From positions 124,001-188,000 of the forward strand of contig NZ_JAKKDU010000007.1 of the NCBI RefSeq assembly GCF_021728535.1: a stretch of 64,000 nucleotides of DNA, written 5' to 3'. This DNA comes from Wocania arenilitoris (GTDB lineage: Bacteria > Bacteroidota > Bacteroidia > Flavobacteriales > Flavobacteriaceae). A program made the translations under genes and the position numbers. The notes beneath the pieces were generated by a model that saw only the letters and a list, made by a program, of their open reading frames with translations, made no database searches and was not told where the DNA came from. This document shows positions 31,376-46,583 of this stretch, in pieces. The number at the start of each line of letters is the position of its first letter. Position 1 is the stretch's first letter.

Positions 31376-32794
31376 TCAGACATTTGTTTTTAAGCCTAAA
31401 CGTTCGCCTTCTTTTAGCATTAAATTAAAAGCGGCATCGTGCTCGTTAGGTATTTCTCCTTCTAAAATAGCTTCTTTTATAACTTCTTTAATAAGCCCAA
31501 TTTCGCGAGATGGCTTTATATTAAAGGTTTTCATAATTTCCTCACCAGAAATTGGTGGTTGAAAATTACGAACATGGTCGCGTGCTTCAACTTCAATTAT
31601 TTTATCTCTAACAATTTTAAAATTATTGTGGTATTTATTGAATTTTTTCGGATTTTTGGTCGTTATGTCTGCTTCGCAAAGCGTCATTAAATCTTCTACA
31701 TAATCACCAGCATCAAAAACTAAACGGCGCACAGCAGAATCGGTTACAATATCTTGAGCTAGTACAATAGGGCGTGAGCTCATAAGTACCATTTTTTGAA
31801 CAAATTTCATTTTATCATTTAATGGCATTTTAAGTCTTTTGAATAAATGATAAACCATTTTTGAGCCTTCAAATTCATGACCATGAAATGTCCAACCTAC
31901 TTTTTTACTAAACTTTTTTGTTGGTGCTTTGCCAATATCGTGTAACAGAGCAGCCCATCGTAGCCAAATGTTCTCAGTATGTTTTGCAATATTATCAACA
32001 ACTTCTAAAGTGTGATAAAAATTATCTTTATGGCGTTGTCCTTCTATTTCATCAATACCTTTTAATGCAGTAATTTCTGGTAAAATATAGTTTAATAGTC
32101 CTGTTTTTTCTAATAATAAAAAACCAGTTGAAGGTGTTTTGCTTTCTAAGATTTTATTTAATTCTACAACAATACGCTCGTTAGTTATAATTTTAATTCT
32201 GTGGTTGTTTTTTGAAATAGATTTTAACGATTCGTCTTCAATTTTAAAATTGAGTTGAGTAGCAAAACGTATAGCCCTCATCATTCTTAAAGGGTCATCA
32301 CTATAGGTTATATCTGGATTTAAAGGGGTTCTTATTATTTCATTTTTTAAATCTTCAATACCATTAAACGGATCAAGTAAATCTCCAAGTTTGTTCTTGT
32401 TTAAATCTAAAGCTAGTGCATTTATAGTAAAATCTCTACGATTTTGATCGTCTTTCAATGAGCCGTTTTCAACAATTGGGTTTCTGCTGTTTTCGTTATA
32501 AGATTCTTTTCTAGCACCAACAAATTCTATTTCAATATCATCGTACCGTAACATGGCAGTACCATAGGTTTTAAATATTTGAACCTTGGGTTTGTTAGGT
32601 AAGTTTTTAGCTACTTGCTTAGCAAGCTCAATACCGCTACCAATAGCAACAATATCGATATCTTTAGCGTTGCCACGATTTAATATGTAATCACGCACAA
32701 AGCCACCAATTACATAACTGTCTAAATTTAATTCTTTAGCAGATTGCGATATAACCTTAAAAATAGGATGCTTGAGTGCGGTTTTATAATTCAT
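31376..32794 (-). CDS. cca: tRNA nucleotidyltransferase (CCA-adding) with HD domain
   Basis: A 472-aa class II nucleotidyltransferase. The head has GGFVRDYILNRGNAKDIDIV (about 30-49), the nucleotidyltransferase signature with catalytic DxD. RRDFTINALALDL and DDPLRMMRAIRFATQLNF follow. A C-terminal HD domain is present (LLHDIGKAPTKKF, about 285-297). Together they fit CCA-adding enzymes or poly(A) polymerases of Bacteroidota, which mature tRNA 3' ends in the cytoplasm. It ends in TGA, used here as a genuine stop. It is the first intact gene of an operon whose upstream members, sua5 and a glycosyltransferase, are broken. Confidence 0.93.
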   Translation of the reverse strand: MNYKTALKHPIFKVISQSAKELNLDSYVIGGFVRDYILNRGNAKDIDIVAIGSGIELAKQVAKNLPNKPKVQIFKTYGTAMLRYDDIEIEFVGARKESYNENSRNPIVENGSLKDDQNRRDFTINALALDLNKNKLGDLLDPFNGIEDLKNEIIRTPLNPDITYSDDPLRMMRAIRFATQLNFKIEDESLKSISKNNHRIKIITNERIVVELNKILESKTPSTGFLLLEKTGLLNYILPEITALKGIDEIEGQRHKDNFYHTLEVVDNIAKHTENIWLRWAALLHDIGKAPTKKFSKKVGWTFHGHEFEGSKMVYHLFKRLKMPLNDKMKFVQKMVLMSSRPIVLAQDIVTDSAVRRLVFDAGDYVEDLMTLCEADITTKNPKKFNKYHNNFKIVRDKIIEVEARDHVRNFQPPISGEEIMKTFNIKPSREIGLIKEVIKEAILEGEIPNEHDAAFNLMLKEGERLGLKTNV

Positions 32795-32805
32795 TTATTA
32801 AATTC

Positions 32806-32870
32806 CAAAAATTTAATTCCAAACTCCAAACCAATATTGATTGGAATTTAGTACTTGAAATTTGAGTCTT
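32806..32870. repeat. Palindromic dispersed repeat, copy 1 (AAATTCCAA family)
   Basis: AATTCCAA (32815-32822) and TTGGAATT (32841-32848) form an inverted repeat inside a block built of TTCCAAA units that ends in GAGTCTTTT. A clearer relative lies at 56552-56604, in the same position relative to leftward genes. It sits between the broken sua5 and cca. Confidence 0.5.
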
Positions 32871-33430
32871 TTATTTTCGTATAATCTTTACAATACCACT
32901 ATTACTCAATTTAATAATTGAAGAGGGTTTGTTGCAGATTTTTTCGTGATGCAAATTTACAACATAGTCTACACCTTTTAAAATAGCAGGACTTATTTCT
33001 TTAAATGATTTTGGAGTAGGTTAGTCACTAATATTTGCAGAAGTTGAAACGAAAGCATCGTTAAGTTTCCTAATTAATTGATAACAAAAATAATCATCAG
33101 GAATTCGTATTGAAACGGTACCATCATTAGCCATTAAATTTGAAGCAAAATTTTGTGCTTCGTCGTAAATTATTGTAATTGGTTTATCTGAAATTTCAAT
33201 AATACTATATGCGGCTTCGGGTATAGTTTTCACATATTTTTTAGCATTCTTTCATCAGATACTAAACAAATCAATGGTTTGGTGATTTCGCGTTGTTTTA
33301 AATTATATATTTTTTTTACAGCCTCTGGGTTAGTAGCATCGCAACCAATGCTTCAAAAAGTATCAGTTGGGTAAAGTATAAGTCCTCCATTTTTTAATAT
33401 CTGTAGGGCTTTGTTTAATTGGTTTTGTAT
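32871..33430 (-). pseudogene. Broken L-threonylcarbamoyladenylate synthase (Sua5/TsaC/YrdC)
   Basis: The reading is unmistakable across about 186 codons: GGLILYPTDTF, GCDATNPEAVKKIYNLKQRE, KPLICLVSDERML, IRIPDDYFCYQLIRKLNDAF, STSANIS, PTPKSFKEIS. Yet four lesions occur. The expected ATG that would overlap the upstream stop (TAATG) is ATA at 33430-33428. The Trp codon of DTFWS is TGA (33355-33353). One base, probably a G, is missing near 33234, shifting the frame. A codon after SANISD is TAA (33023-33021). The enzyme makes threonylcarbamoyl-AMP for tRNA t6A37, which is usually essential, so another copy must exist or the sequence is wrong here. Confidence 0.85.
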
Positions 33431-34427
33431 TAATCAGATTTAAAAATTTTTAATAATTTATTATCCTCAGGATTAATTAAATAAGGGTTTTCTTCATTAA
33501 GAAGCTTTCCGTTCAAAACTTTTTCATAGAGTTTAAGATAATTATTTGTCATTACTTTAGCATTAAAGCAATCCTTAGCATATTCATGGCAATATTTTGG
33601 AGAAAAGTCACTGTTTTTTATAGCATAAATTATTTCTTTCAGAGAATTACTTGTAAATCCAACATCTTTAATAATAAGTTCTTTTAAAGAACCATATGAT
33701 GTTGAGTAAACAGGGCTACCATAAAATAAACTTTCAATAGCAGCTAAGCCAAAAGGTTCATGCCATTTTACAGGAAAAACTAACCCTTTAGATGAGCTTA
33801 CTATTTTAGATTTTAAAGTGTTATCTACCATGCCTAAGTATTTTATTTTGAATTAAAAAGATATTTGAATCCTCTTTTTATATTGGCTTCTGTCCATTTA
33901 TTTCCACCCATAACCATTAGCTGATTATTAGTTTTTTTGCAATTTCGCAAGCTCCAGTTAAATTTTTTAATTTCCAAGATACTTTGCCTAAAAAATGAAG
34001 ATAGGATCGTTCTTTATTTAAATCTATTTTTGGATAATCATCTCAATCCAATCCATTATATACGTAAGTCTTAGAATTATGCCTGAGAGCATGATTTTTA
34101 GATAAGAAAACGGATTGTTTATGTAGTTTTTCATCTGAATTATAATTACCATGTATCGTAATTAAATATGGTTTTTTTAAAGGTGTATAAATATTAAAAT
34201 GGATATGCACTAAGTCTATATAATTTGGTATTTGATCATTTAAATCTTTGTTAGGGTCATAAATCAATGATTTTAGCAAAATCACAATACGATCCTTTAG
34301 GTACTAGAAAGACTATGTCATGCCCTTGATTATGAAGTTCTTTTGCTAACCCCCAAATAACACGTTCGGTACCACCGTACTTAACTGCAGGAATTTTTCC
34401 GCCTCTATCTACTATTAAAATTTTCAT
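33430..34427 (-). pseudogene. Broken group 1 (GT4-type) glycosyltransferase
   Basis: It starts at ATG 34427 (MKILIVDRGGKIPAVKYGGT) and runs to TAA 33430. Pieces in three frames join into one GT4-like protein: YGGTERVIWGLAKELHNQGH, then VHIHFNIYTPLKKPYLITIH, then YLHFLGKVSWKLKNLTGACE, then GMVDNTLKSKIVSSSKGLVF and the nucleotide-sugar segment FPVKWHEPFGLAAIESLFYG. Four lesions are visible: one extra A in the run at 34271-34274, Trp to TGA at 34045-34043, one A missing in the run at 33932-33938, and a one-base loss near 33849-33856. Intact, it would have been a glycosyltransferase of the adjoining surface glycan cluster. Its stop overlaps the former sua5 start. Confidence 0.85.
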
Positions 34428-34563
34428 ATGGGCTATGGCTAAAAAAAATATAATGCATAAAAATATAGTTTTCCTATTATTAAGAACTAAGTTTTAGATT
34501 AATGTTTTATAAATAGAAAAAATTAAACTATAAGTTTATATATTATAATAAATTAAACTTGTT

Positions 34564-34571
34564 TATTTTTG
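34564..34571 (+). promoter_or_regulatory. Candidate -7 element of the surface glycan operon
   Basis: TATTTTTG fits TAnnTTTG and ends 21 bp before ATG 34593, in an otherwise extremely AT-rich divergent gap. No well-spaced TTG was found. Confidence 0.5.
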
Positions 34572-34592
34572 ACATGATTGAAAATTGTATAA

Positions 34593-35525
34593 ATGAAGTT
34601 TGCTAATAAAGTTTTAAATGGATTATCCAGAATTACAAGAAAATTAGTTTATCATCGTAAACTAAACCAACTATATAAACATTTTAATAAATTATTTCTG
34701 TTTTTTGGTATTGAGCCTATTGTAACTGCTAAAATGCATGATGGGACAACAATGCTTGTAGATTTAAGTACGAAAACTGAAAGAATTTCATTCTATACTG
34801 GAAAATACGATCCAGATTTAATGGCTGTTATACAATCTCTATTTAATCCAGATTTTAGCTTTTTAGATATTGGAGGCAATATTGGATATTATTCTGTTGC
34901 TATGGGTAATTTTATCAGATTAAAAAATGCTAAAGGGAAAGTAGTCGCTTTTGAACCTTTTGAAGGAAACTATTTAAGACTTAAAAACAATTTAGCAGCT
35001 AATGATTTAAGTGAGATATGTGAGGTTAATAAATTTGGATTATCAAACAAAGTTAAAGAAACACAAATTACGTTGAGAGAAGACTTTAAGCACGGGGCTA
35101 ATACAGGAAATGCTGCCATAAAAACAAGTAAATCTATGGATGAAGGCTTTAAACTTTCTCCAATTAAACTTGAAACTTTAGATGATATTTGGATTGAAAA
35201 ATATAGTGATTTTGCTAATATAGATGTTGTAAAAATGGACATTGAAGGGCATGAAGATTTTTGTTTAGAAGGAGGAAAAGAAGTTTTTAGTAAGCATAGA
35301 CCAACAATATTAATGGAAGTTAATAAGCCGTATTATGAAGCTCGAAAAGTTGAGTTAGACAATCGTTTTTTTCCACTTATCCCAGAGAATTATAATATTT
35401 ATAAGCAAAATGGGGTGAAATGGAATCGTATAAAATCCTTAAATGAGTGCTCAACTCTAGATAATGTTTTTTTGATACCCATTGAAAAACTTAGATTAGA
35501 TGGTTATAACGTTTTTGAAAAATAA
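34593..35525 (+). CDS. FkbM family methyltransferase
   Basis: A 310-aa protein with an SAM-dependent methyltransferase fold: FLDIGGNIGYYSVAMGNF (about 90-107, glycine loop I), VVAFEPFEGNYLRLKNNLAA (acidic end of strand 2), and VVKMDIEGHEDFCLEGG (about 214-230), the FkbM signature. FkbM relatives in such clusters methylate sugar hydroxyls of lipopolysaccharide or exopolysaccharide. It is the first gene of the rightward unit with the glycosyltransferase (16-bp gap) and the kinase-like gene. The exact acceptor is unknown. Confidence 0.88.
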   Translation: MKFANKVLNGLSRITRKLVYHRKLNQLYKHFNKLFLFFGIEPIVTAKMHDGTTMLVDLSTKTERISFYTGKYDPDLMAVIQSLFNPDFSFLDIGGNIGYYSVAMGNFIRLKNAKGKVVAFEPFEGNYLRLKNNLAANDLSEICEVNKFGLSNKVKETQITLREDFKHGANTGNAAIKTSKSMDEGFKLSPIKLETLDDIWIEKYSDFANIDVVKMDIEGHEDFCLEGGKEVFSKHRPTILMEVNKPYYEARKVELDNRFFPLIPENYNIYKQNGVKWNRIKSLNECSTLDNVFLIPIEKLRLDGYNVFEK

Positions 35526-35541
35526 AATTTAAAGGCACTAG

Positions 35542-36351
35542 ATGAATCAAAACATTAATTCAACTTTAATTATATCTACTTATAATTGGTCAGAAGCTTT
35601 GGAGTTGGTTTTAATGAGTGTAAAAAATCAAAAAGTATTTCCAACCGAAGTAATAATTGCAGATGATGGTTCTAAAAAAGAAACCAAACTTTTAATTGAG
35701 TTTTTTCAGAAAGATTTTCCTGTACCATTAAAACATATTTGGCATGAAGATATTGGATTTAATAAATCTATGATTTTAAATAAAGCAGTTTCTAAATCAA
35801 TTGGAGATTATATTATTCAAACCGATGGAGATTGTATTTTGCACAATTCCTTTATTAAAAATCATTTAAAGTTTGCTAAAATAAATCACTATTTGTTTGG
35901 AAGCAGAGTTAATATTCAAGCATTTTATTTAAAAGACTTGTTTTTAAAAAAGCAAACGAGTTTTCATGTTTTTTCTAAAGGAATTAAAAAAAGAACAAGA
36001 GCTATATACGCACCTTTTTTAACGATACTATATAAAACTAAAAATGTATTTTCTAAGAAATTTAGAGGATGTAATACATCATATTTTAAAAGTGATTTTT
36101 TAGCGGTAAATGGTTATAATGAAGATTTTAAAGGTTGGGGAAGAGAAGACTCTGAACTTGCATTGCGTTTTCATAATAGAGGGATAAGAGGAAAAAGGTT
36201 AAGGTATTGTGGTATTGTATACCATATTTTTCATCAAGAAAAATCTAAAGATAGATTAGAAATTAATAATAATATTGAAGAGAGTACTATAGCAAATAAG
36301 TCTGTTTGGTGTGAAAAAGGCGTTGACAAATATTTAAGTGAAAAGCAGTAA
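35542..36351 (+). CDS. Family 2 glycosyltransferase with galactosyltransferase-like C-terminus
   Basis: A 269-aa GT-A fold enzyme. STLIISTYNWSEALELVL opens it, IIADDGSKKET (about 43-53) binds the nucleotide, and QTDGDCILHNSFI (about 93-105) holds the metal-binding Asp motif. FKGWGREDSELALRFHNRG (about 199-217) is the GWGxED motif of galactosyltransferase-type C-terminal domains. It probably transfers a hexose or HexNAc onto a surface glycan at the inner membrane. It overlaps the next gene by 14 bp, indicating translational coupling. Confidence 0.9.
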   Translation: MNQNINSTLIISTYNWSEALELVLMSVKNQKVFPTEVIIADDGSKKETKLLIEFFQKDFPVPLKHIWHEDIGFNKSMILNKAVSKSIGDYIIQTDGDCILHNSFIKNHLKFAKINHYLFGSRVNIQAFYLKDLFLKKQTSFHVFSKGIKKRTRAIYAPFLTILYKTKNVFSKKFRGCNTSYFKSDFLAVNGYNEDFKGWGREDSELALRFHNRGIRGKRLRYCGIVYHIFHQEKSKDRLEINNNIEESTIANKSVWCEKGVDKYLSEKQ

Positions 36352-37102
36352 TATACACAAAGAGTACAAGCACAATAATGTTTTTTTTGATGACATTATT
36401 GCCAATTTTGATTCAAAAGGAGAAAACTTTGGTAATCAAGATAGGAACTCGTTAAAATTATTTAGATTAAATAATGAAACGATTAATGTTAAATCGTTTA
36501 GAATTCCAAATATTATAAATCAAATAGCCTATCGTTTTTTTAGAAAAAGTAAAGCACAACGCTCTTTTGAATATGCCAATAAATTAAAAAACTTAAATAT
36601 TGGTACACCACAACCCATTGCCTATTATGAATTTAAAACACCTTTTTTATTTAAAAAAAGTTATTACATAAGCGAGCAAATAGATTGTGACTACACGTAT
36701 AGAGAGCTCACAACAGATTTTAATATTCCTAATTATAATGAAGTATTAAGAGGCTTTACACGATTTACATTCAATTTACACGAAAAAGGAGTTCATTTTT
36801 TAGATCATTCTCCTGGTAATACTTTAATTAAGAAAACAGAAAATGGCTATGATTTTTATTTGGTTGATTTAAACCGAATGGAATTTAAAACTTTAGATTT
36901 TGAAACACGAATAAAAAACTTTTCAAAATTAACCATTCATAAATCTATGGTTGAAGTAATGAGCGATGAATATGCCAAATGTTCTGGAAAAGATTATGAA
37001 ACTATTTTTAATTTAATGTGGAAAGAAACCAAAACATTTCAAGAAAAATACCACAGAAAAAGGCGTTTAAAAAAGAAGCTTAAATTTTGGAAGAAGCTGT
37101 AA
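36338..37102 (+). CDS. Lipopolysaccharide kinase-like protein (InaA/KdkA type)
   Basis: A 254-aa protein kinase-like fold. The catalytic loop reads HFLDHSPGNTLI (about 151-162: Asp154, Asn159) and the metal-binding Asp lies in FYLVDLNRMEF (about 170-180). The family phosphorylates Kdo or core heptose of lipid A-core in the cytoplasm. With glycosyltransferases on both sides, a role in LPS core phosphorylation is likely. It overlaps the preceding gene by 14 bp, and its end runs 23 bp into the convergent glycosyltransferase gene on the other strand. Confidence 0.82.
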   Translation: MKSSNIHKEYKHNNVFFDDIIANFDSKGENFGNQDRNSLKLFRLNNETINVKSFRIPNIINQIAYRFFRKSKAQRSFEYANKLKNLNIGTPQPIAYYEFKTPFLFKKSYYISEQIDCDYTYRELTTDFNIPNYNEVLRGFTRFTFNLHEKGVHFLDHSPGNTLIKKTENGYDFYLVDLNRMEFKTLDFETRIKNFSKLTIHKSMVEVMSDEYAKCSGKDYETIFNLMWKETKTFQEKYHRKRRLKKKLKFWKKL

Positions 37103-40404: not shown

Positions 40405-41661
40405 TTACAGTGCCGCTTCTATTTCATTTACTGAAACTCCTAGAATTTTTAATGCAAGAGCGTTTATTTGTTTATCGGTTCCGCTAAAATGATATATAGT
40501 TTGCGTATGTGTGTAACTTTCTTTTGATTTTAAAAATAGTGCTGGTGATGAGCTTTCTAATTCGTAAAATGGCCCTAATTGCTCTCCATTTTCTAACGGT
40601 CCATCATTATAAGAATTGATAACATCACCCGAGAATGGGTTTTCTTGAATCTCCCAAGCAGAATTTACATACTTATCTTTAACCCTAGGCTCATCAATTT
40701 CAAGAATAGTCAATACTTTGTTATTAGCATCATAACTGCCAATAAACTTTGTAGCCCTTTTAGGTGAAAATCCTATTTTGCCTCTACTCTTTCCATCTGC
40801 TTTAAAAAAGACAGTTTTATCTGTTGCTTTTAATCTATCTTGGTCTACCTTTCCAAAATAATTATCATTTACTTTCGCTCCCAATTCTTCTTTTCCTCCT
40901 TCTTTAATTGGTGCGACCACGGTAACTGCCGGTGCCGGATTTAACATGCATAAAATCCAGATGGAAGGAACTCCAGAATCTTCCGTCCAAGCATTATTTC
41001 CTTGATTAACGATTTTGTTTTTAGATTTAAAAGCTACCGCAGAAAAATCTACATCTATTAACCCTAAATTGTTTTTAATATCGTCTTTAGATATCAAACT
41101 AATGGTTCTTGTAATATCTAAGTTGAACGTAGTTCCAGAATAATTTGTTATAGCAGCCTTTTTATTAAATACAGCAGTTGATTTATTATTCGCTACAACT
41201 TCAAAGGGTTCTGAATCTATTAATGTAGGCACCTTCCAATTCTTAAAATCGAACGAAACATTTTCTGGGAAATATAGTGAAAATTGACCTCCTTCAGGAC
41301 CCAGCCAAAAACGCTCTTCACCCCCAAAAGCATTAAATTGTTCGCTCAATTCTCCCGAGGCTATCAAATCATGGTTGATCCACCCAAAGCTCATCCCCTC
41401 ATTACCATTTAAAGAGCTTGTCATAACGCGCCCTTGAAGTTCTGGAGACACTAATATTGAAGACTTTTCTATTGAATTTTCGAGAACAATTGTGTTTTTA
41501 TACTGCTGCATTAAAAACTGCCTATCGTATCCAAATGTTCCTTTTGGATATTCTTCTTTTTTAGGTGATTCTTGCAACCTTTGCATTTTTTCAACTTTGC
41601 CTTTACACGATATAATCAATGTGAAAAAACAAATTAAACCTACGTTAAATTTTACATTCAT
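40405..41661 (-). CDS. DUF6786-type lipoprotein of the PUL
   Basis: A 418-aa lipoprotein: a short signal ends at the lipobox LIISC (Cys19). The body has GRVMTSSLNGNEGMSFGWIN (about 87-106) and FNAFGGEERFWLGPEGGQFS (about 120-139), which I recall as hallmarks of DUF6786 proteins. The strand pattern suggests a carbohydrate-processing beta-sandwich of the galactose mutarotase type, an inference. It is the last gene of the leftward locus, 40 bp after the sulfatase. It is presumably at the outer membrane or in the periplasm, acting on the same sulfated glycan. No catalytic residues are established for this group. Confidence 0.75.
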   Translation of the reverse strand: MNVKFNVGLICFFTLIISCKGKVEKMQRLQESPKKEEYPKGTFGYDRQFLMQQYKNTIVLENSIEKSSILVSPELQGRVMTSSLNGNEGMSFGWINHDLIASGELSEQFNAFGGEERFWLGPEGGQFSLYFPENVSFDFKNWKVPTLIDSEPFEVVANNKSTAVFNKKAAITNYSGTTFNLDITRTISLISKDDIKNNLGLIDVDFSAVAFKSKNKIVNQGNNAWTEDSGVPSIWILCMLNPAPAVTVVAPIKEGGKEELGAKVNDNYFGKVDQDRLKATDKTVFFKADGKSRGKIGFSPKRATKFIGSYDANNKVLTILEIDEPRVKDKYVNSAWEIQENPFSGDVINSYNDGPLENGEQLGPFYELESSSPALFLKSKESYTHTQTIYHFSGTDKQINALALKILGVSVNEIEAAL

Positions 41662-41701
41662 TTTACTTAAATAATTAGATCTAAAACAAACAATTAATCT
41701 A

Positions 41702-43243
41702 TTAAAATAACTCTATTGGCAATGGAACTTTTTTATTTGTTTCCTTATACTTCGGCATTTGTGCTCCTACTTCTACAAGATAATCTGACAGTGTTTTTGC
41801 TAATACTTTTGTTTTATCTGTATGTTGCTCAATTAGGTTATTGGCTTCACTAATATCTTCTTTAAGATTGTACAGCTCCATGGTTTTGCTCTCATGGAAA
41901 TAGATGAATTTCCAATCACCCTGCCTAACAGCGCTAAAAGCCCCTATACCTGGACCCGACACACCCCACTCATTAGGATAATGCCAAAACAACGGTCGGT
42001 CTTGGATAGCTTCGTCTTTGCCTTTTAGCTTTTCGGTGAAACTGACCCCATCTATTTTTTGAATGGTTTGGTAATTCTCTACCCCTGCCAGTTCTAGTAT
42101 GGTAGGGTAAAAATCCTCAATAATCAAGTAATCGTCGTTTACAGTATTAGGTTTAGTAATACTTGGCCATTTTACAATCATAGGCTCCCTGATACCACCT
42201 TCGTAAATAGAACCTTTTCCACTATTTAAAGGAGCATTGTGCTTGTGCTTTTCACCTGCTCTGGCATGAGCACTCAATCCGCCATTGTCCGACATAAATA
42301 GGATGATGGTATTGTCGACTATGTTCTTTTCTTCTATATAATCCATCAAATCGCCCAAGCTTTTGTCCATACCCTCTATTAATGCGGCATATTTGGCCTC
42401 GGACTCTGGCATGCCCTTATCCAAGTACTTCTGGATAAATCTTTTGTCTGCCATTAAAGGCACGTGTATGGCGTAATGGGACATGTACAGAAAGAATGGT
42501 TCCTCCTTGCTTAATGATGCATCCAACGCTTTTTTAGCTTCTAGGGTAAGGGCTTCAGTCAAAAATATATCCTTCCCGTGGTAGACTTCCAGTCCCGGGA
42601 TGCCCCAAACGTTGTTTTTCCTGTTTCCAAAATTGTCCGTTCCCAAATAACTTCCAGGACCTCCAGCAGCGTGACCTGCTATATTAACATCGAAACCCAG
42701 GTTTGTTGGGTTGGCGCCCAAGGTTTCTCTGGCTCCAAAATGAGCCTTCCCTACATGTATAGTATGATAGCCTGCACCTTGCAAAAGCTGCGGCAATGTG
42801 GTAGCATGTGCTGCCCTTGGAGTATCTTGAGACGGACTGATGCCGTTCACGTTCCATTGCGGAAAGCTCAAAGTTTTATGATTGTCCTCCATGGGTTGAT
42901 TTACATCTTTTCGTAACGTCCAATTGGTCACACGGTGTCTTGCAGCGTTCATGCCTGTCATTAAGCTTACTCGGGTAGGCGAACAGACCGACGTCGCGTA
43001 GGCATTGGTGAACTTGACTCCCTGACTTGCCAAACGCTCCATATTGGGGGTCTGGTAAATATCGTTTAAAGGGGTTCTTCTGTCCCAGAACGGTACCGAA
43101 GTATCCTGCCAGCCCATATCGTCTACCAAAAAGAGTATGATATTGGGTTTATCGGGTACAGCTTTATTGGATTTTGTCTTTTCAGAACAACCAAAGGCTG
43201 TTAATACAGATAAGGCGATTAAAAAAATTAATGGTCTGTTCAT
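41702..43243 (-). CDS. Formylglycine-dependent sulfatase lipoprotein (S1 family)
   Basis: A 513-aa protein with a lipobox LTAFGC (Cys19). It shows the alkaline phosphatase-like sulfatase fold. NIILFLVDDMGWQDTS (about 34-49) supplies the calcium-binding Asp pair, and CSPTRVSLMTG (Cys87-Arg91) is the site where Cys becomes formylglycine. GYHTIHVGKAHFG, MSHYAIHVP and MSDNGGLSAHARAGEKHKHN hold the remaining active-site residues. It needs an anaerobic or FGE-type maturase elsewhere. It removes sulfate esters from the PUL's polysaccharide. The DNA is clearly richer in GC than its surroundings: one 60-base line (42841) has 27 G+C. Confidence 0.93.
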   Translation of the reverse strand: MNRPLIFLIALSVLTAFGCSEKTKSNKAVPDKPNIILFLVDDMGWQDTSVPFWDRRTPLNDIYQTPNMERLASQGVKFTNAYATSVCSPTRVSLMTGMNAARHRVTNWTLRKDVNQPMEDNHKTLSFPQWNVNGISPSQDTPRAAHATTLPQLLQGAGYHTIHVGKAHFGARETLGANPTNLGFDVNIAGHAAGGPGSYLGTDNFGNRKNNVWGIPGLEVYHGKDIFLTEALTLEAKKALDASLSKEEPFFLYMSHYAIHVPLMADKRFIQKYLDKGMPESEAKYAALIEGMDKSLGDLMDYIEEKNIVDNTIILFMSDNGGLSAHARAGEKHKHNAPLNSGKGSIYEGGIREPMIVKWPSITKPNTVNDDYLIIEDFYPTILELAGVENYQTIQKIDGVSFTEKLKGKDEAIQDRPLFWHYPNEWGVSGPGIGAFSAVRQGDWKFIYFHESKTMELYNLKEDISEANNLIEQHTDKTKVLAKTLSDYLVEVGAQMPKYKETNKKVPLPIELF

Positions 43244-43395
43244 TTTAATTGGTTTGACAGGTTTTGTATTCCATGGCTACACTTCTTATTACTTAAAGAC
43301 TGTTTTAAACAGTCTCTATATGGATTCCTGTCTGAGCAGCAATGGCAACTAAATTATATTTGCTCATGAACTATAGGCTTACCCCATAAGTATTA

Positions 43396-44463
43396 TTATT
43401 CAGCATCCTTGATTTCAATATCATAACGCATTAAATAAGGCCAAATGTTATTAGCTCTGTCTCCATAAAACATGGAAATACCCCACGTGATGTTCTCTTT
43501 TTCCTCTTTTTCTCCCTCAAAATCATCAAACCTAAAATATCCTGGGGCTTTTGGATACTTATTGTCAAAACTTCCGATTACATAAAAATTAATACCATCT
43601 TTTGCATATTGAAGTGTTCTGCCCTCTGTTCCATGACTGGACAGCAATGTCATCACACCTTCTTTATGTGGCCATACCATTACTTCGTGACCTCCATTGG
43701 TTATAGGGTTTTCGGTATGCTTTTCATAAGGCCCCTCGGGTTGATTGGCTATAGCAACACCCATTTTAGTATGGCTCGGTCCACTATTGCCATAATTTGC
43801 TGAACGTCCTTTGTAATACAACCAATATTTACCCTCCCTGTACAGCACACAGGAGTCGTCTATCCTGTAACTGTCAAAATCACTTTTTATGGTACTTGTT
43901 TCTAATATGGGATTTTCTGAAACCCGCTTAAAAGGACCATCGGGACTATCTGCCTCCATTAAACCTATGGCTGTAATATCGTTGACAGAGTTGTTTTCGA
44001 AAACACCTTCTGCATTACCAGGCGTAGGTTTTACGCCTGTATAGTATAGATAGAACTTATTATTGCTCTTTAATACGTTTGGGGTAAATACACTATAGGC
44101 ATCCCAACTTCCCGCTGCTCCTCTTGGAATGGCTTCTCCCTTTTCTTCCCAATTAACCCCATCTTTAGAAGTAGCATACCAAATAGAGGCATTGTACCCA
44201 CTAAAATGCTTATCTGTTTTAGTATACCATACATAGTACTGGCCGTTTACCATTATCACATCGCTTGGGTCGCGACGGGTAAGGTTCGCCTCCTCGCCTA
44301 TGCCGTTAAGTTTTGTGTAACTATACGAAACTTCTTTTTGAGATTCTTTTTTTACGTTTTCAGCAATGACCTCTGCATTATTCTGTTTTCCTTCCTGACA
44401 GGACAGTAACAAAAATACCGTAAAAAGTAAAGTGGATTTGATTAGTGCATGTTTTAATCTCAT
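43396..44463 (-). CDS. GH43/GH117-like beta-propeller glycoside hydrolase lipoprotein
   Basis: A 355-aa lipoprotein with lipobox LLLLSC (Cys22). The five-bladed propeller repeats are visible: RRDPSDVIMVNGQYYVWYTK (about 63-82, candidate Asp65), ASIWYATSKDGVNWEEKGEA, YSVFTPNVLKSNNKFYLYYT, YRIDDSCVLYREGKYWLYYK (about 199-218, candidate Asp202/203), and NGGHEVMVWPHKEGV (candidate Glu260). The acidic residues are placed as in clan GH-F/J-like and GH117 propellers. I cannot settle the exact family. GH117 members act on anhydro-galactose units of red algal galactans. It sits between susD and the sulfatase. Confidence 0.75.
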   Translation of the reverse strand: MRLKHALIKSTLLFTVFLLLSCQEGKQNNAEVIAENVKKESQKEVSYSYTKLNGIGEEANLTRRDPSDVIMVNGQYYVWYTKTDKHFSGYNASIWYATSKDGVNWEEKGEAIPRGAAGSWDAYSVFTPNVLKSNNKFYLYYTGVKPTPGNAEGVFENNSVNDITAIGLMEADSPDGPFKRVSENPILETSTIKSDFDSYRIDDSCVLYREGKYWLYYKGRSANYGNSGPSHTKMGVAIANQPEGPYEKHTENPITNGGHEVMVWPHKEGVMTLLSSHGTEGRTLQYAKDGINFYVIGSFDNKYPKAPGYFRFDDFEGEKEEKENITWGISMFYGDRANNIWPYLMRYDIEIKDAE

Positions 44464-44524
44464 AATTATTCTGAATGTATTATATTTTTGTAATGTATAT
44501 TGAAATTATTTAAACTTTTTCATT
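44464..44524. other. Short leader upstream of the hydrolase gene
   Basis: Sixty bp of A/T-rich sequence before ATG 44463 on the minus strand. No clear TAnnTTTG element. The hydrolase may depend on read-through from susCD or on an unrecognised promoter. Confidence 0.35.
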
Positions 44525-44777
44525 TTATTTAAACAACCATGCTTCATGTTGTTTTAAGGTTTTTGTTTTGACCTTTATTGTATTGGCTTTTTTAAATACT
44601 AATTTTGATATTTCCAATGTTCCTGAAAGCACTTTTATTTTTGCCGAATATTTGTCGGTATCTTGTTTTGGAATTTAAATTCTTTTTGAAATTCCTTGTA
44701 CCAATGGTTTGCAATTCTGTTATAATCTTGTGCTCTAATTACTATATTGCTATATCGTAATTATTTTCAATTTTATA
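44525..44777 (-). pseudogene. Eroded gene fragment inside the PUL
   Basis: The gap between susD and the hydrolase holds protein-like sequence on the minus strand, split over three frames. The pieces are KIENNYDIAI, then VIRAQDYNRIANHWYKEFQK, then QDTDKYSAKIKVLSGTLEIS followed by KLVFKKANTIKVKTKTLKQH and EAWLFK before TAA 44527-44525. Joined, they give about 80 residues of a plausible C-terminus, with at least two frameshifts and no start. I do not recognise the family. Its position suggests that the locus once had one more enzyme. Confidence 0.5.
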
Positions 44778-44830
44778 CTATTATGCACTTATATAAAAAG
44801 CTATTTTGATTTTGTTTTTTGTGAATTTAA

Positions 44831-44860
44831 AAAAAGGGAGAAAGTATATTCTCCCTTTTT
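44831..44860. terminator. Bidirectional terminator after susD
   Basis: AAAAAGGGAGAA (44831-44842) and TTCTCCCTTTTT (44849-44860) pair perfectly over 12 bp with a 6-nt loop. It lies 62 bp after the susD stop. It should limit read-through from susCD to the enzyme genes. Confidence 0.9.
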
Positions 44861-44921
44861 CATTAAACAAATCAAATTAAATAACTCAAATATAAATAAT
44901 ATGATTATGACTTTAGTATTT

Positions 44922-46556
44922 TTACCAACCTGGATTTTGCTGCAAGTTAGTGTTTATTATGGTTTCTTCTACAGGAAATGGCTCTAAGTAATCTCTAGCA
45001 GTAAAGTTTCTTTCACTTCCAGGTTCTACAATAACAAATCCTAGTGCATCTGTAGCAGGAGCAGACGGATAACGTAATACTCCTGGACTGAGCTCTGCTG
45101 TTTCAAACTCTGTGCCCACAAATTGTGCTCCCTTTAAAGCCATAGGCATTTCTACTTCTGCTGTTTTCCAACGGCGCAAATCGTCTCTCCTATATCCTTC
45201 TTGCGCTAATTCTATAGTACGCTCCCTACGAATTTCGGAAAGCATATCCAATCCATTTGTAGTTACTAAGCTATTAGTTAAAGCTGCAATACCAGCTCTT
45301 GTTCTTAATAAGTTAATACTGCTATTTAATTGTGCATCTGTAATGCTACCGTTCCTCTCGAAAGTAGCTTCAGCATTAATTAACAATACTTCTGCAAAGT
45401 GAAAACTATGGGCATAATATGTATTTGACCCTGTCCCTTCAAAGTAAAACTCACTTATAAACTTATAGTTAGCATAAAATGTTTGATCTAATGCTATAAT
45501 TGGCCAATCGGCTTCTGCTCCCGTCTGATCTAAACGATCTATAGTAAACGCACCTGGAGTAATAATGGTCATAGCCATTCTAGGGTCCCTATTTTCAAAT
45601 TCAGTATCCATCAAGGCCCTACCTTGAAATAAAGGAGATACATCTATAGGCAAGCCATCTGTACACAAATACATATCTGCCAGTTTTTTAGTGACTGAAT
45701 TTCGATCTCTTGCTGTACTACTGTGGCCATGCCTTCTATCTCTATCAAAACGTTTGGCTACAATCTGTTGAGGAGAATCGTTACCTACCTCCATAAAGAA
45801 ATAGCGATATGATTGCGCTGGATTTGGCGCGTAATTAAATAATGAGTACTCGCCACTATTCATAATAGCTTGAGAAGCATCAATAGCTTCATCAAACCTT
45901 TGGTTGGCATCTCCAGTTGTTCCGTGGTATTTAATCCAAGTACCTTCAAATAAAGCTATTCTTGCACGTAAGGCATCTGCAGCTCCTTTGGTTATACGCC
46001 CATACTCGCTGTTAGGTAATTGGCTTTGCAACGGTAATAAATCCCTAATAGCATTAAGCTCGTCTATAATAAAATCTACAACTACTTCTCTTGAAGTTCT
46101 TGAAGCAAAAAGCGCATCATTATCAGCAGGATCTATAACGCTGGTGTAAAACTGTACATCGCCATACGCCATTACTAGACGTGTATAATACAAGGCTCTA
46201 AACCATCGTGCTTCTGCAACCCAACGACTATTTTCAAAACCATTGGTACTAGCTCTATCTATAATAAAATTGGCATCTCTAATATCGGCATACGAACCAT
46301 TATAAAACCCACTTGTTTGTGGTGCTACCCTACTACCATTACTAACATCGCTAGGTGAATTTGCAAATGCTATATCTGAATTAGTATCTGACCTAAACCC
46401 GTCTAAATCATTATATAAAAAGTTAACGGCCAGTTCATAATCTTGTTCTTTGTCCCAAAGGAAACCATCTGTTATTGTATGCTCTGGTGACAAATCTAGT
46501 TCCTGACAAGCAGTAAACAGAAACGCAATACATATGATATATATTATTTTTTTCAT
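44922..46556 (-). CDS. susD: SusD/RagB family glycan-binding lipoprotein
   Basis: A protein of 544 aa from ATG 46556 (MKKIIYIICIAFLFTAC). An ATG three codons upstream (46565) is possible but spoils the usual MKK start. Lipobox FLFTAC (Cys17) is followed by QELDLSPEH. TPR-like helices with ARWFRALYYTRLVMAYGDVQ (about 120-139) and the C-terminal LLINAEATFERNGS, LLRTRAGI and IRRERTIELAQEGYRRDDLR are standard SusD features. It binds oligosaccharide at the cell surface and lids the SusC channel. It starts about 27 bp after the susC stop. Confidence 0.95.
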   Translation of the reverse strand: MKKIIYIICIAFLFTACQELDLSPEHTITDGFLWDKEQDYELAVNFLYNDLDGFRSDTNSDIAFANSPSDVSNGSRVAPQTSGFYNGSYADIRDANFIIDRASTNGFENSRWVAEARWFRALYYTRLVMAYGDVQFYTSVIDPADNDALFASRTSREVVVDFIIDELNAIRDLLPLQSQLPNSEYGRITKGAADALRARIALFEGTWIKYHGTTGDANQRFDEAIDASQAIMNSGEYSLFNYAPNPAQSYRYFFMEVGNDSPQQIVAKRFDRDRRHGHSSTARDRNSVTKKLADMYLCTDGLPIDVSPLFQGRALMDTEFENRDPRMAMTIITPGAFTIDRLDQTGAEADWPIIALDQTFYANYKFISEFYFEGTGSNTYYAHSFHFAEVLLINAEATFERNGSITDAQLNSSINLLRTRAGIAALTNSLVTTNGLDMLSEIRRERTIELAQEGYRRDDLRRWKTAEVEMPMALKGAQFVGTEFETAELSPGVLRYPSAPATDALGFVIVEPGSERNFTARDYLEPFPVEETIINTNLQQNPGW

Positions 46557-46583
46557 TGTTCTCATTGTTTTTAATTGTTATGC

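Follow-up and report, generated by a model that had tools for sequence, protein, structure and literature searches.

Threonylcarbamoyl-AMP synthase, which is needed for the t6A modification of tRNA, is normally an essential enzyme. The exchange of one form of this enzyme, TsaC, for the other, Sua5, has been described as patchy and as proceeding through transfer and loss, with co-occurrence of the two forms being rare and unstable (PMC10321239). That survey filtered for the catalytic tetrad and retained one sequence per species, and the strings "Bacteroid" and "Flavobacteri" are absent from its main text. YciO has been described as a paralogue of TsaC that does not perform the function of TsaC in vivo, and its active sites are largely conserved (PMC12506659). 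In addition, internal promoters have been reported within operons in Epsilonproteobacteria (PMC3847290), and TAnnTTTG has been reported as the -7 box of flavobacterial sigma-A promoters (PMC9723704). It is already known that Sua5 can replace TsaC and that operons can contain internal promoters.

The locus examined here was compared with the parts of these reports that bear on it. As in PMC10321239, one t6A synthase appears to have replaced the other by transfer and loss; in contrast to that survey, a remnant of the replaced gene was caught in place, co-occurrence was common (29 of 396 genomes) and half of the co-occurring TsaC proteins lacked a complete tetrad. These tetrad-less proteins, like YciO (PMC12506659), are TsaC relatives, but they sit at the tsaC position in front of cca, and only genomes with Sua5 were found to have them; a different gene of the genome studied here may be of the YciO type, a TsaC relative with another role. 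Unlike the internal promoters of PMC3847290, the putative promoter site in tsaC is held across a large part of the family by synonymous constraint and outlasts its host gene. It has the TAnnTTTG -7 box in common with the promoters of PMC9723704, whose starts were mapped, whereas the tsaC element was read from sequence inside a gene. Searches of the open-licence PMC literature, as judged from the listings, yielded no cca promoter inside tsaC, no fossils of such a promoter and no tetrad-less TsaC in Sua5 genomes. Our main conclusion, which we hold with considerable confidence, is that tsaC is dying in this genome as Sua5 supplies threonylcarbamoyl-AMP, and that a promoter in the tail of tsaC, most likely that of cca, outlives the enzyme.

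The window, a 64,000-nucleotide stretch, lies on contig C35 of the Wocania arenilitoris genome (G000; 3.49 Mb, 37 contigs, completeness 99.99%). The tsaC remnant extends from 33430 to 32871 on the minus strand and carries four lesions. Specifically, ATA was found at 33430-33428, where the genus mates have a start codon; TGA replaced a Trp codon at 33355-33353; alignment with the intact tsaC genes of G001, G002, G003 and G195 placed the loss of one base within 33250-33231; and TAA was located at 33023-33021. The PF01300 matches in the remnant contained two TGA codons and one TAA codon, and the remnant had no open reading frame able to yield the enzyme. We classified the broken gene as the TsaC type by its PF01300 domain alone and by its slot upstream of cca, as in the genus mates.

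Next to it, from 34427 to 33430 on the minus strand, lies a glycosyltransferase remnant with three frameshifts and a TGA in place of a Trp codon. Five homologues (L005, L007, L014, L019 and L026), each 328-330 aa long, aligned to it in three to four pieces in three frames. The frameshifts fell near 34277-34255, 33937-33914 and 33857-33833, and the TGA was at 34045-34043, where the best homologue, L005, has Trp. The open C-terminal piece matched Glycos_transf_1 with an E-value of 1.2e-5, just short of the Pfam cut-off, and the closest named homologue was from Nonlabens antarcticus (64%), which, together with the promoter type, pointed to the Flavobacteriaceae. No link between decay of the glycosyltransferase and loss of tsaC was found, and G001-G003 had no homologous frame of at least 100 aa at this place.

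An earlier note on this DNA had counted eight lesions in the two genes (a lost start, two Trp-to-TGA changes, one TAA and four frame lesions) and had read three of the substitutions as G to A on the coding strand; both statements were confirmed. Its description of intact genes on either side was also borne out, as the frames of cca and of an FkbM-type methyltransferase gene were open. The cca gene, for tRNA nucleotidyltransferase (31376..32794, minus strand), encodes PolyA_pol, PolyA_pol_RNAbd and HD domains; the top NCBIfam matches of its product were CCA enzymes, with scores under their cut-offs. The FkbM-type gene (34593..35525, plus strand; PF05050) is the right-hand neighbour of the glycosyltransferase remnant. 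It is followed at 35542..37102 on the plus strand by genes for a family 2 glycosyltransferase and a Kdo/WaaP-type kinase, identified via Pfam, in a variable saccharide region: the saccharide genes from tsaC to the kinase gene (33430-37102) were unlike those of G001-G003 (L168-L170). Farther along the window, at 40405-46565, genes that by eye resemble those for a SusD-type protein, glycosidases and a sulfatase lie in a stretch with a G+C content of up to 0.42, compared to about 0.30 around it.

The earlier note had also suggested that the lesions might be a badly sequenced patch. Relative to G001, G002, G003 and G195, the tsaC remnant carried 45 unique changes over the 558 nt of the gene, distributed over codon positions 1, 2 and 3 in the ratio 17:5:23 (chi-square p 0.004 in a test against an even spread). 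The adjacent cca gene carried 53 unique changes in 1413 nt (20:6:27), so the density in the remnant was about twice that in cca. The codon-position bias and the density indicated that tsaC diverged mostly as a gene, and faster than its neighbour; tsaC probably broke lately, and a large share of the 45 changes may be older than the break. A bias of this kind, as in real divergence, left the suggestion of a badly sequenced patch unsupported, and sequencing error was an unlikely cause of the lesions. The sharp boundaries of the damaged region and the placement of two of the indels in A/T runs are what might be expected if a low-quality 1.56-kb patch of the assembly mimicked lesions in two intact genes. 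Given that bias, the presence of an independent Sua5 in this genus member and not in G001-G003, and the finding that tsaC loss across the family was seen only together with Sua5, we consider such an artefact very improbable.

The earlier note had argued that loss of tsaC demands a second copy and had proposed a search of the genome for another Sua5 or TsaC. Besides the remnant, W. arenilitoris has two PF01300 genes, one on contig C23 and one on contig C11. The C23 gene, which lies between ygiQ and rplM, encodes a long Sua5 with PF01300 and PF03481 in a single open frame, and its KRSN catalytic tetrad is complete, as it was in 63 of 63 aligned Sua5 proteins. The genus mates G001-G003 have no Sua5_C match and carry an intact tsaC upstream of cca. 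Thus, the demanded copy was found as a full-length Sua5 with its tetrad, in a genus of which three other members have tsaC without Sua5. The interval from polA to rplM varies in the genus: in W. arenilitoris, sua5 and ygiQ share it with two genes, one of them for a glycosyltransferase (L159:10502-15819, on C23), whereas G001 and G003 have other genes there and G002 lacks any frame of at least 100 aa. There are also two TsaD-family genes in the W. arenilitoris genome. The C23 Sua5 is likely to be active and to supply threonylcarbamoyl-AMP, and it presumably arrived before tsaC broke.

In the case of the C11 gene, the product has PF01300 alone and KISH where KRSN is expected. This gene is probably YciO-like. 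It is highly unlikely that this paralogue, rather than Sua5, stands in for TsaC, even though NCBIfam model TIGR00057 calls its product a threonylcarbamoyladenylate synthase (204 bits). The KISH tetrad disfavoured the paralogue as the replacement enzyme. Furthermore, most of the relatives listed have a second PF01300 gene (about 205-265 aa) besides the short TsaC, and despite this widespread second gene, TsaC was absent only where Sua5 was present.

To place the W. arenilitoris locus in its family, the Flavobacteriaceae, we used an even draw of 396 genomes with a minimum completeness of 95. Sua5_C was found in 60 of these genomes and in 36 of 187 genera; it was absent in 336 genomes. TsaC presence was called with the G001 TsaC as the query, and the best E-values fell into two groups (5.3e-37 or lower and 8.3e-23 or higher). 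By this split, 30 of the 60 Sua5_C genomes had no TsaC, and all 336 genomes that lack Sua5_C had one. This test scores pseudogenes as present (W. arenilitoris itself scored 5.1e-65), and stop codons were counted for the best matches only. Both Sua5 and TsaC were held by 29 genomes, which ruled out mutual exclusion of the two, and W. arenilitoris has Sua5 and the tsaC remnant. Genus g153 includes a genome with TsaC only (G159), one with both (G295) and one with Sua5 only (G384), and in genus g34, G036 has Sua5 only and G236 has TsaC only. These mixed states within genera indicated that TsaC was replaced more than once. In W. arenilitoris, it appears that tsaC is decaying since the Sua5 version took over its job.

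Sua5 was probably gained by horizontal transfer, as judged by sequence identities and trees. The Sua5 proteins of W. arenilitoris and G036 were 90.9% identical, compared to 81.7% for Cca, and among the 24 nearest Sua5 proteins, Sua5 identity exceeded Cca identity only for G036 and G240. The fork joining W. arenilitoris and G036 had a support of 91/93 in the Sua5 tree, in which support was moderate overall. In the Cca tree, W. arenilitoris grouped with G001-G003 and G195 (support 92/93), and the placement of G036 was not resolved. In the case of G067, Sua5 grouped with G138, G281 and G374, which belong to another genus, and Cca grouped with its own genus. A doubtful, though not negligible, alternative is that the pair is old: an ancestor had both genes, G001-G003 lost Sua5 and W. 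arenilitoris is losing TsaC, with no recent transfer. The 29 genomes that carry both genes and the gene order ygiQ-sua5-rplM common to G000, G158, G193 and G240 are in line with such reciprocal loss, but the excess of Sua5 over Cca identity for G036 and G240 alone, the grouping of the Sua5 and Cca of G067 with different genera and the lack of Sua5_C in 336 of the 396 genomes argue for transfer.

Within the remnant, at about tsaC codons 150-160, we identified a promoter-like element (32951..32984, minus strand). It consists of TTTT at 32983-32980, 20 nt of any sequence, and TAAATTTG at 32959-32952, followed by C. In intact tsaC, this stretch encodes ILKGVDYVVNLH and has the DNA sequence ATTTTAAAAGGTGTnGACTATGTnGTAAATTTGC. 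The downstream part, TAAATTTG, fits the TAnnTTTG consensus of the -7 box. The -33 element of Bacteroides and other Bacteroidota sigma-A promoters is TTTG at a spacing of 19-21 nt; the upstream part of the element found here is TTTT, 20 nt from the -7 box.

Synonymous codon usage was analyzed in 78 TsaC-only genomes, a sample biased to nearer relatives. Leu160 was encoded by TTG in 76 of 77 genes, compared to a background of 15% (p 4e-62; the p-values treat the rows as independent and serve as a scale only). Similarly, Val158 was GTA in 77 of 78, Asn159 was AAT in 75 of 75, Tyr156 was TAT in 78 of 78 and Leu151 was TTA in 70 of 76. In the same rows, Val154 and Val157 varied at the third base; hence, relatedness alone was not the cause of the constraint. 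Asp155 was GAC in 75 of 78 genes, against a background of 32%, and this constraint was not explained by the promoter reading because GAC was not kept in the fossils described below. When up to two mismatches were allowed, the element pattern was found in 257 of the 396 genomes, with at most one match each among the matches listed, and a reversed control pattern gave 0 matches in its columns. The TAnnTTTG box was missing in 2 of the 78 TsaC-only genes and in 7 of the 29 tsaC genes of two-enzyme genomes, and among 20 tsaC genes from more distant genomes (14 from the same family and 6 from other families), 10 had it at the same place. Of 92 genes in the window and in seven related loci, 42 were preceded by TAnnTTTG on the sense strand and 24 on the opposite strand.

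The element is described here as a putative sigma-A-type promoter that is likely to be active, and its most likely target is cca. Counter to this reading, the tsaC genes of G002, G150, G195, G282 and G374, which are displaced from cca by 292-1267 nt, retain the element, and those of G192, G333 and G390 adjoin cca and have no element. In G002, a GxxExxY gene (TIGR04256; L169:12412-12783) lies between tsaC and cca, and in G282 and G374 the sequence in this position resembled that gene by look. The leader of cca in the window also contains an imperfect inverted repeat (32795-32863) with the arms AATTCCAA/TTGGAATT, and similar sequence was present at the same place in G236; one exact pattern derived from the AATTCCAA palindrome matched no locus.

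The cca regions of 74 of 80 located genomes were covered, comprising every Sua5 genome (60) and 14 further ones. Apart from a 25-aa piece in G224, no tsaC match at an E-value of 1e-3 or lower was present in the 1.4-2.6 kb upstream of cca in any of the 30 TsaC-less genomes. A TsaC profile found tail pieces (model positions 111-182) upstream of cca, and in seven genomes these scored 4.9-18.4 bits; the highest of ten shuffled maxima was 4.2 bits, and the pieces in further genomes were within noise. The tail pieces centred on the element stretch, and most of them lay amid stop codons in that frame.

We also scanned the 300 bp upstream of cca with a weight matrix of the element, using 200 shuffles per genome. 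A site with p < 0.05 was found in 19 of the 30 TsaC-less genomes (1.5 expected), and 18 of the 19 sites contained TAnnTTTG, the exception being G201. Sense scores reached 42.0, and no antisense score was above -37.0. TAnnTTTG itself occurred within 200 bp of cca in 24 of the 30 genomes (shuffled mean 3.7, maximum 9) and was lacking in six. It occurred in antisense in 11 of the 30, which was above the shuffles and indicated that the background for TAnnTTTG is higher than the shuffles suggest. For 17 of the 19 sites (G180 and G201 were left out), bases were compared with those of tsaC. The TTTT bases were kept in 14, 16, 17 and 16 of 17 fossils, and A20, G25 and the invariant box bases were kept in 17 of 17, whereas at positions 11, 13, 15-18 and 24 the tsaC base was kept in only 5-8 of 17. 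The matrix contains the box, so the box in the fossils was not independent evidence; the drift of the middle and the spacing were more telling.

When the box is part of an intact tsaC, at least 89 nt always separated it from the start of cca, as the last tsaC codons stand between them. In contrast, of the 24 TsaC-less genomes that have the box, 17 had a distance of less than 89 nt, with a minimum of 13 nt. In G407, the element is gone from tsaC, which is 1.4 kb away, and a tail piece with TACCTTTGC adjoins cca; in G191, the distant tsaC no longer has the element either, and TACCTTTGC is found 21 nt before cca. The distances, the fossils and the tsaC genes of G407 and G191 fit a cca promoter, and we infer that such a promoter is embedded in tsaC and outlasts it.

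An unlikely alternative is that the conserved stretch is some other kind of signal in DNA or RNA, or that it results from the codon needs of TsaC translation. The conservation of a 34-nt element beyond the bare -7 box and the near fixation of GAC at codon 155 would suit it, but translation cannot hold fossils that contain stop codons, the TTTT and TAnnTTTG spacing is fixed in the fossils while the middle drifts, and an Rfam search of 32700-34700 with E-values up to 1 returned no known RNA element.

TsaC lacked one or more of the K, R, S and N residues in 15 of the 29 two-enzyme genomes, compared to 0 of 78 TsaC-only genomes (Fisher p 1e-10), and no tetrad loss was observed in 20 further TsaC proteins. 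The 15 tetrad-less genes (G138, G281, G374, G168, G302, G174, G306, G199, G206, G295, G319, G404, G333, G407 and G417) had full-length open frames beside or near cca, with Sua5 present, and 12 of them retained the box. The dN/dS ratio was 0.12-0.27 in five tetrad-less pairs, compared to 0.05-0.16 in intact pairs from TsaC-only genomes; these values are rough, with dS near or over 1 in most pairs, and two further pairs were saturated. Thus, some tetrad-less TsaC proteins seem to be still under selection as proteins.

We propose the following sequence of events. A long, two-domain Sua5, whose gene now lies between ygiQ and rplM, would have been gained and would supply threonylcarbamoyl-AMP. The redundant tsaC would then have gathered lesions, and the neighbouring glycosyltransferase gene of the variable saccharide region would have decayed too. 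A sigma-A-type promoter written in tsaC codons 150-160 would drive cca, and selection on this promoter would continue once the enzyme is dispensable, so that in TsaC-less relatives the stretch is often left as a fossil with stop codons. A broader proposal, for which we judge the chances to be even, is that a cca promoter locked in tsaC across much of the family decides the fate of tsaC, which becomes either a fossil in a shrinking leader or a dead TsaC-like protein that purifying selection keeps for a new role.

Automatic naming may well label such tetrad-less TsaC-like proteins as t6A synthases. In W. arenilitoris, one form of an essential tRNA-modification enzyme was caught part-way through its replacement by another, and the states before and after this exchange are visible across the 396 genomes. 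For the Bacteroidota, the family provides what amounts to a natural mutagenesis of a putative promoter: a live tsaC would serve as protein and promoter and a dead tsaC as promoter alone, and the comparison of the two would separate the constraint on the protein from the constraint on the promoter.
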